A stretch of DNA of 64,000 nt from NCBI RefSeq assembly GCF_018798885.1, contig NZ_CP076361.1, positions 310,001 through 374,000 of the forward strand. Direction: 5' to 3'. The stretch's first letter is position 1, and every line of letters begins with the position of its first letter. The translations under genes and the position numbers were made by a program. The notes under the pieces were generated by a model. It was not told the origin of the DNA and did no database searches. It saw nothing but the letters and a program-made list of their open reading frames with translations. This DNA comes from Gemmobacter fulvus (GTDB lineage Bacteria > Pseudomonadota > Alphaproteobacteria > Rhodobacterales > Rhodobacteraceae). Below, piece by piece: positions 11,036 to 12,124 of the stretch.

Positions 11036-11149
11036 GGGGGGCGGGTGCCCCCTACTATTTTGTCGGGCTGAACGCGGGGCAAGCGCTGTGTTGCCTTGCG
11101 GTGGCCGGTTGCGCATCCTAGATTTGGGCAAAGGACAGGAGGCGTTCAC

Positions 11150-11392
11150 ATGCCGATGGAAGGCAAGGATATCGAGGCGCTGATCCGGGAAGGTTTCCCG
11201 AAGGCGAAGATCACCATCACCGATCTGGCGGGCGACGGAAACCACTGGGCCGCCGAGGTGATTGACGACAGTTTCAAGGGCATGAACCGGGTGCAGCAAC
11301 AGCGCGCCGTCTATGCCAGCCTCAAGGGCAAGATGGACGGGGCACATGGCGAGCTTCATGCGCTGGCGCTGACCACCAAGGCCCCCGAATGA
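11150..11392 (+). CDS. BolA family protein
   Basis: An 80-residue BolA-fold protein. BolA proteins partner monothiol glutaredoxins of the CGFS type to bind a [2Fe-2S] cluster and take part in iron-sulfur trafficking or iron sensing. The family helix-turn-helix-like core is visible as GDGNHWAAEVIDDSFKGMNR, with His in position to be a cluster ligand, and QQRAVYASLK. AGGACAGGAGG precedes the ATG at 11150 and decides the start against an upstream in-frame codon. It overlaps the next gene by 4 bases (ATGA), and the partner grxD follows that gene, so the three form one operon. Length and lack of an extended N terminus suit the short BolA2/IbaG type. Confidence 0.93.
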   Translation: MPMEGKDIEALIREGFPKAKITITDLAGDGNHWAAEVIDDSFKGMNRVQQQRAVYASLKGKMDGAHGELHALALTTKAPE

Positions 11393-11715
11393 CACCGCAG
11401 CTGGTCTGGCTGCTGCTGGCGGGCTTGGCCCTTGTTGTTGCGATTGCCGTCGAGGCTTGGCTGCGGCGCGGGCGCAGCGGTGCGTCGTCGGCACAGCGGT
11501 TCGCCGCGAACCTCGGCAAACCTGCCGATTTGGGCACCGAGGCGCTGGATACGGCGCAGTTCCACAGCGACATGGCCCGCAATGCCCCCTTTGCCCAGAC
11601 CGCCGATTTCAGGGCGCGCCCCGATGCCTTGCAGACCGATCTGCGCCCTGTGAAAGATGACACCAGCTATGCCACCCGCTTTCACGCGGCGTTTGGCAAG
11701 AAGAAGGATGACTGA
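11389..11715 (+). CDS. small single-pass membrane protein between bolA and grxD
   Basis: A 108-residue protein of unknown function. Residues 5-23 (LVWLLLAGLALVVAIAVEA) form one hydrophobic segment with almost nothing before it, followed by WLRRGRSG, so the N terminus is probably outside and the 80-residue tail in the cytoplasm. The tail is polar, lacks cysteine, and ends in AFGKKKDD. Translation is coupled at both ends: the start overlaps the bolA stop by 4 bases, and the grxD start lies immediately after the stop. The context suggests a role tied to the BolA-glutaredoxin pair at the membrane, but nothing in the sequence shows it. I recognise no named family. Confidence 0.8.
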   Translation: MTPQLVWLLLAGLALVVAIAVEAWLRRGRSGASSAQRFAANLGKPADLGTEALDTAQFHSDMARNAPFAQTADFRARPDALQTDLRPVKDDTSYATRFHAAFGKKKDD

Positions 11716-11716
11716 G

Positions 11717-12079
11717 ATGACAAGCGCGCAGGATCAAATCCGCGAAACGGTTGAGAAAAACGACGTGGTGTTGTTCATGAAGGGCACCAAGATGATGCCG
11801 CAATGCGGATTTTCGTCCCGCGTCGCAGGCGTTCTGAACTATATGGGCGTCGATTTTGCCGATGTGAACGTGCTGGCCGATGCCGAGATCCGTCAGGGCA
11901 TCAAGGACTTTTCCGACTGGCCGACCATTCCGCAGCTTTATGTGAAGGGCGAATTTGTCGGCGGCTGCGATATTGTCACCGAAATGACCCTGTCGGGCGA
12001 GCTGGACGCGCTGTTCGAGGCCAAGGGCGTCGCCTATGACAAGGACGCTGCCGAAAAGATCCGCGAAGCCAACGCCTGA
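11717..12079 (+). CDS. grxD: monothiol glutaredoxin, Grx4 family
   Basis: A 120-residue CGFS monothiol glutaredoxin, which binds a [2Fe-2S] cluster with glutathione and hands it on or shares it with BolA. Cys30 lies in MKGTKMMPQCGFSSR. WPTIPQLYVKGEFVGGCDI carries the cis-Pro and the glutathione-binding GG. I prefer the ATG at 11717: a purine-rich AGAAGG site lies about 9 bases before it. An in-frame ATG at 11708 touches that site and overlaps the upstream stop. It closes the bolA operon, and a bidirectional terminator follows. Confidence 0.95.
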   Translation: MTSAQDQIRETVEKNDVVLFMKGTKMMPQCGFSSRVAGVLNYMGVDFADVNVLADAEIRQGIKDFSDWPTIPQLYVKGEFVGGCDIVTEMTLSGELDALFEAKGVAYDKDAAEKIREANA

Positions 12080-12098: not shown

Positions 12099-12124
12099 AA
12101 AAGCCCGCCTTCCGGCGGGCTTTT
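12099..12124. terminator. bidirectional terminator between grxD and zapA
   Basis: AAAAGCCCGCC, loop TTCC, then GGCGGGCTTTT. The stem is followed by T residues on both strands, so it can end the grxD operon on the plus strand and zapA on the minus strand. The two stops face each other across 46 bases. Confidence 0.9.

Follow-up and report, generated by a model that had tools for sequence, protein, structure and literature searches.

The bolA–grxD region was analysed within a stretch of 64 000 nucleotides from Gemmobacter fulvus (NZ_CP076361.1, positions 310 001–374 000), which is referred to below as the window. Open-reading-frame (ORF) calls and profile searches confirmed the order bolA, a 108-amino-acid ORF and grxD on the + strand; the place between bolA and grxD is called the slot. 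The features of the locus (window coordinates) are as follows.

11036..11053, + strand: terminator-like hairpin in the purL–bolA interval, a possible 5' border of the bolA–slot–grxD transcript (motif scan)
11150..11392, + strand: bolA, 80 aa (ORF; Pfam PF01722, E = 9.4e-12)
11389..11715, + strand: slot gene of family B, encoding a predicted single-pass membrane protein of 108 aa (overlaps bolA by ATGA; a congener has a homologue of 45% identity in this slot)
11395..11475, + strand: predicted membrane helix, residues 3–29 of the slot protein (hydropathy and single-sequence AlphaFold2)
11530..11550, + strand: LGTEALD, residues 48–54 of the slot protein, corresponding to the recurrent family B signature LG-x-EA-x-D (alignments)
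11650..11712, + strand: C-terminal tail VKDDTSYATRFHAAFGKKKDD, residues 88–108, resembling the DDETYAARYHRxF tail of long family B members (alignments)
11717..12079, + strand: grxD, monothiol CGFS glutaredoxin, 120 aa (NCBIfam TIGR00365)
12103..12124, + strand: hairpin GCCCGCC-TTCC-GGCGGGC followed by TTTT, 3' of grxD, a possible terminator (read by eye)

BolA and CGFS glutaredoxin form a [2Fe–2S] pair, and both are nearly universal. By Pfam and NCBIfam the flanking genes of the window are ordinary members of this pair: the bolA product belongs to the BolA family (PF01722, 45.5 bits against a cut-off of 25.7) and the grxD product is a Grx4-type monothiol glutaredoxin (TIGR00365, 151.6 bits against a cut-off of 117.1) with CGFS in its translation. 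The ATGA overlap with bolA and the immediately following grxD that had been reported in the first-pass annotation are both present; the ATGA at 11389–11392 comprises the bolA stop and the start of the slot ORF, and a single base (11716) lies between the stop of the slot ORF and the grxD ATG. The G+C content of the slot ORF by codon position (0.67/0.51/0.77) resembles that of bolA and grxD and is of the coding type. A scan of the locus for promoters and terminators gave no excess over shuffled sequences. The hairpin at 11036..11053 was the one found against 1.2 expected in shuffles and is not significant, and the hairpin at 12103..12124, with its four T residues, is absent from the scan output because the terminator scan requires five.

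The 108-residue protein was searched against Pfam, where no match exceeded the cut-off (best YwiC, 14.4 bits against 25), and against NCBIfam, where none was found; together with the predicted helix, this agrees with its earlier description as an unknown membrane protein. The 20 family B sequences of alignment A2 gave just scattered weak matches to Pfam and NCBIfam, in one or two sequences. The slot protein was assigned to family B by its position between bolA and grxD and by profile A2 (E = 9.6e-24 in its own genome), this match being partly by construction since the window sequence is one of the 20 rows of A2. The highest 19-residue Kyte–Doolittle window (2.54) is N-terminal, with basic residues next to it, and a single-sequence AlphaFold2 model gave a confident helix at residues 3–29 and little else (mean pLDDT 66.2, pTM 0.24), leaving a tail of about 80 residues after the helix. 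Among the membrane ORFs found in the slot in Rhodobacteraceae, an excess of Lys and Arg after the helix over those before it (15 residues on each side) was found in 67 of 67, the position of the helix near the protein start leaving few preceding residues for this count; hydropathy indicated a second helix in none of the 67. The median helix start is residue 5 and the median tail length is 57 residues. Hydropathy and charge thus fit an orientation with the N-terminus outside and the tail in the cytosol. The alignments of families A and B contain no conserved Cys in the tails, so by this evidence the proteins of these families would not themselves be cluster ligands.

A search with the single protein against 101 relatives yielded one convincing match, in G010 (45% identity, E = 8.8e-17; locus L002), where the homologue occupies the same bolA–grxD position and BolA is 96% identical. 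In the 11 genomes of the genus, family B is present in five (the window and G010, with shorter forms in G001, G002 and G004) and family D in two (G005 and G008), while the remaining four (G003, G006, G007 and G009) have no membrane ORF in bolA–grxD gaps of 230, 12, 11 and 103 nt, respectively; shortened family B members lie at loci L043, L044 and L046. A putative paralogue elsewhere in G007 (match at L006) was rejected as it crosses other reading frames and represents no comparable gene. The nearest relative by the bolA–grxD locus is G006 (L039), which is 93% identical and has a gap of 12 nt without a slot gene. Most relatives lack the gene, which is literally the finding that the first-pass annotation had named as refuting its idea; since the closest relative also lacks it, BolA–GrxD works without it. 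Outside Rhodobacteraceae, 27 loci from the other families with the best scores were examined, out of 161 genomes with grxD (three of the 161 being Rhodobacteraceae). All 26 readable loci lack an ORF of at least 30 aa between bolA and grxD, in contrast to the small membrane genes inserted here, and the gaps measure 2–93 nt with one exception of 218 nt.

Within Rhodobacteraceae, loci were collected from 146 of 149 genomes, one per genus, giving 147 loci (two from one genome) and, with ten congeners, 157. In 155 of the 157, bolA immediately precedes grxD, and the other two show no bolA in the fetched stretch. Gap lengths range from −1 to 745 nt, gaps of 11–50 nt being common; in the 156 loci used further (L201 added) the gap is ≤90 nt in 73 and >90 nt in 83, and an insert is missing from about half of them. 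Classification by profile placed family A in 26 loci, B in 22, C in eight and D in seven, with two or three families in some loci and with a few assignments, such as L092 to C, L010 to D and L128 to A, based on weak matches; membrane ORFs of other kinds occur at a further 11 loci, and in 17 the spacer has none. A membrane ORF was defined as one covering 60% of the gap with a hydropathy of at least 1.6. By this rule one is present in 52 of 82 bolA–grxD gaps of more than 90 nt compared with four of 75 purL–bolA gaps above the same length, the latter coming from the 114 loci whose purL was read and serving as the sole operon-gap control; the purL–bolA inserts are soluble genes rather than membrane ORFs. 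Forty dinucleotide shuffles gave a mean of 0.175 and a maximum of two membrane-ORF loci against the observed 52 of 83 with a gap of more than 90 nt, and the membrane ORFs in the bolA–grxD gap are therefore not chance occurrences. In 53 of 58 loci the start of the first membrane ORF lies no more than 15 nt from the bolA stop (with an exact ATGA in 19), and in 38 of 58 the end of the last one is equally close to the grxD ATG.

Two kinds of insert were observed in the neighbouring purL–bolA gap. Seven relatives (L054, L058, L092, L117, L126, L135 and L146) contain a Cys-rich ORF with the motif CAxCAALCCVxxxxDKG...PCxNL..H.C.IH..L..RGF.GC..Y.C.GAGQ adjoining the iron–sulfur genes; it presumably resembles the CxxCxxCC (YkgJ) type, and the one of the seven that was searched gave no Pfam match at E = 0.1. 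GNAT-like acetyltransferase ORFs, mostly overlapping the purL stop by ATGA, occur at L013, L014, L040, L042, L043, L044, L046 and L047, some of them in congeners, but not in the window species; the one searched, from L047, matched PF00583 (E = 2.9e-7). At L049, G007 has a second, diverged bolA–grx pair (52% and 59% identity) whose two genes enclose an ORF of 305 aa resembling an aldo/keto reductase; the pair is possibly foreign, the G007 genome being 82% complete with 3% contamination.

Family A proteins (about 80 aa) share the tail RGSxPGxGxHxI..YxSG..GGG..VP[RK]DPQEYAKxFVPK, and 15 columns are invariant across 42 sequences. Family B is characterized by the helix, KRxxxRPLA and LGxEAxD, to which long members add the DDETYAARYHRxF tail, and its alignment A2 has no invariant column. 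Family C (about 45 aa) ends in ALRPYxKxD..RR, and family D has the core YGxGxW..RR. Several family B members (L066, L109, L323, L325, L327, L336 and L341) lack the helix and start with a short aromatic and basic stretch; their retention of both tail motifs suggests that the tail is the working part. The AlphaFold2 model of family A (mean pLDDT 80.6) consists of a helix, a glycine-rich β-hairpin and a short C-terminal helix, and Foldseek searches of the model and its tail against solved structures gave no useful match (best E = 3.6). Several loci have stacked slot genes: three consecutive ORFs at L067/L184 (a 44-aa ORF, B and A) and at L129 (B, D and C), and pairs at L111, L326 and L342 (A then B), L344 (B then A) and L115 (D then B). 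L340 and L342 also encode chimeras that begin like B and end like A and are matched by both profiles (A1, 2.7e-13 and 8.5e-10; A2, 2e-12 and 1.9e-11, in a set of 14 sequences). L150 likewise matches A1 and A2, but it was a row of A2. The chimeras appear to link families A and B, and any case for homology of their tails depends on L340 and L342; comparison of the profiles themselves gave a probability of only 36.5% with a shifted register, a weak likeness on which homology was not accepted. The window protein matched profile A1 with E = 0.0071 in the same set of 14 sequences. In the Roseovarius-type loci L063, L257 and L278 the family A gene is followed by that for a larger membrane protein of about 157–188 aa, with a single helix and a domain in the cytosol; the protein of L257, the only one of the three searched, gave no Pfam match better than E = 0.04.

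In the 149 family genomes all 22 matches to profile A1 lie in the slot, 21 of them being sequences from which the profile had been built. Of the three matches in 289 class genomes, one occupies the slot of an additional Rhodobacteraceae genome, and the other two are weak and at loci with neither bolA nor grxD. When 84 980 species were scanned, 153 relatives of family A came up; the best 80 of these 153, some of them from genomes already in the first set, all sit between bolA and grxD. For family B (profile A2, E = 0.001), 41 of 384 family genomes gave 42 matches, and 40 of the 42 lie in the slot; for newly drawn genomes the figure is 22 of 24. Of the two matches elsewhere, one is weak and the other is a genuine B-like ORF in G567 (E = 1.8e-8), whose slot is empty (32 nt). 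This ORF (locus L339, 1501–1635, − strand) encodes 54 aa without a hydrophobic helix, adjoins a sugar epimerase/dehydratase-like frame and was counted as a true exception to exclusivity. A search at the looser threshold of E = 0.01 added two further weak matches elsewhere. The weak family B matches of that search in G138 and G182 (E about 0.005) were treated as chance, as was a second match in G647 (7.1e-4) at L346, which has neither bolA nor grxD. In 240 class genomes, A2 found only its own genome and five weak matches without bolA or grxD (E = 0.001–0.007), also treated as chance. Family C gave nine matches, seven in the slot and two weak ones inside long frames. By these profile searches, families A, B and C sit almost exclusively between bolA and grxD. 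The first-pass annotation had called the gene locked into the operon, which is borne out for position (40 of 42 family B matches in the slot) but not for presence (five of 11 genomes in the genus and 41 of 384 in the family).

Comparison of the slot gene with its nearest full-length homologue in the genus (L048) gave dN = 0.517 and dS = 1.99, the latter near saturation, and hence a dN/dS of about 0.26, with 46, 29 and 68 differences at the three codon positions; these values indicate that the frame is translated and constrained. The neighbours in the same pair gave dN/dS values of 0.025/0.57 (bolA) and 0.09/0.80 (grxD), so that replacements accumulate in the slot protein at about 20 times the rate of BolA (dN of 0.517 versus 0.025). 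The family B pair L044/L046 has dN = 0.093 and dS = 0.229 (ratio 0.41), and close family A pairs have dN/dS values such as 0.015/0.126, 0.0/0.072, 0.078/0.234 and 0.089/0.32. Judged from these substitution patterns, both families are under purifying selection, which is much looser for B than for its neighbours.

Trees were built from bolA and grxD (156 loci) and from bolA, grxD and part of purL (106 of the 156). As 58 of 103 inner branches of the locus tree have weak support and its shape is distorted by three long branches, the trees were used just for counting label changes. Family A required 13 changes for 13 carriers (12.55 after shuffling), B 12 for 15 (14.2) and any slot occupant 28 (33); on this weak tree occupancy hardly follows the locus. 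The scatter of labels, the stacks and the chimeras suggest that the slot is old and that its genes were often lost and exchanged, and the counts do not separate gain from loss. In a scan of BolA and GrxD residues a single column passed the Bonferroni threshold of 1.9e-4: GrxD residue 103 (window 12023–12025) is Asn in 39 of 66 loci with a slot membrane ORF and in 25 of 90 without (p = 1.3e-4), a statistic that ignores kinship and was not used as support.

Small single-helix regulators of membrane complexes, of the AcrZ, KdpF and MgtS type, are lineage-specific and co-transcribed with their partner. The slot proteins are similar in size, single helix, lineage restriction and apparent co-transcription with a partner; they differ in that they have predicted cytosolic tails bearing motifs of their own and in that their genes are flanked by those of soluble iron–sulfur carriers and not of a transporter. 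In the accessible parts of the open-licence literature (including PMC7538681 and PMC10051749) no membrane component of BolA–GrxD was found, and the accessible parts likewise contained no description of a gene between bolA and grxD. The slot gene, whose product fits no family described in Pfam or NCBIfam, would give a putative new form of the bolA–grxD operon.

The reading that we tentatively prefer is a lineage-specific, fast-evolving membrane adaptor of the BolA–GrxD pair. Acting with BolA or GrxD would best explain the fixed position, the coupling to both genes, the constrained tail and the near-absence elsewhere; a dedicated membrane partner of BolA or GrxD is plausible from the near-exclusive position, translational coupling and cytosolic tail. 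The protein would be a small signal-anchored inner-membrane protein with its N-terminus outside, made beside BolA and GrxD through translational coupling, and its tail, as the working part, may bring the pair, or one client protein, to the membrane. Fast evolution of the tail would then track lineage-specific clients, and small membrane proteins of several kinds, unrelated to each other or only distantly related, may have filled the same role from the same slot in different Rhodobacteraceae. The gene, its coupling geometry, constraint and near-exclusive position and the turnover of the slot are directly supported; we infer the topology (from hydropathy and charge), membrane recruitment, contact with BolA or GrxD and the clients. 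An extension of this is a membrane-anchored branch of the carrier system in Rhodobacteraceae, in which exchangeable tail-in adaptors from this one slot are swapped or stacked between lineages and direct clusters or iron signals to clients that differ; it is more doubtful than the adaptor itself.

Nearly as likely as the adaptor, given the scattered presence, the empty half of the loci and the B-like gene elsewhere in G567 beside an empty slot, is that the inserts are passengers, i.e. orphan membrane proteins of a function unrelated to Fe–S, carried in a permissive, constitutive housekeeping operon by vertical descent with many losses; modulators of a transporter or an envelope enzyme are conceivable. 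The turnover of B, D and nothing within one genus and the presence of several families in one slot agree with this, although a mere landing site should leave more outside copies than the none of 22 (A), two of 42 (B) and two of nine (C) observed, and the neighbouring purL–bolA gap, which also bears inserts, holds soluble genes with membrane ORFs in only four of 75. It is improbable that the ORF is a cis device, a translated spacer which sets the GrxD:BolA ratio by coupling and membrane-localized translation and whose peptide matters little: the tight coupling on both sides and the sequence freedom of family B would suit such a device, but the invariant columns and low dN/dS of family A would not, and the common gaps of 11–50 nt are evidently enough for coupling. 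Least probable of all are neutral or decaying ORFs, small genes that arise de novo and die in an intra-operon spacer. The loci without insert, the 17 of 156 spacers without a membrane ORF and the shortened members at L043, L044 and L046 would be expected from them, whereas the excess over shuffled gaps, dN/dS values below 1 and motifs common to several genera speak against them; for families A and B the constraint already disfavours this origin.

For the adaptor reading, a family found almost only between bolA and grxD would provide a direct handle on a partner. The pattern itself is unusual, with several small and similarly oriented membrane families replacing each other or stacking at one fixed place in an operon. 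Family A has cultured hosts, among them Sulfitobacter, Roseovarius, Tateyamaria omphalii, Marinovum algicola, Thalassobacter stenotrophicus and Pseudosulfitobacter pseudonitzschiae, which make the idea testable in ordinary environmental strains.
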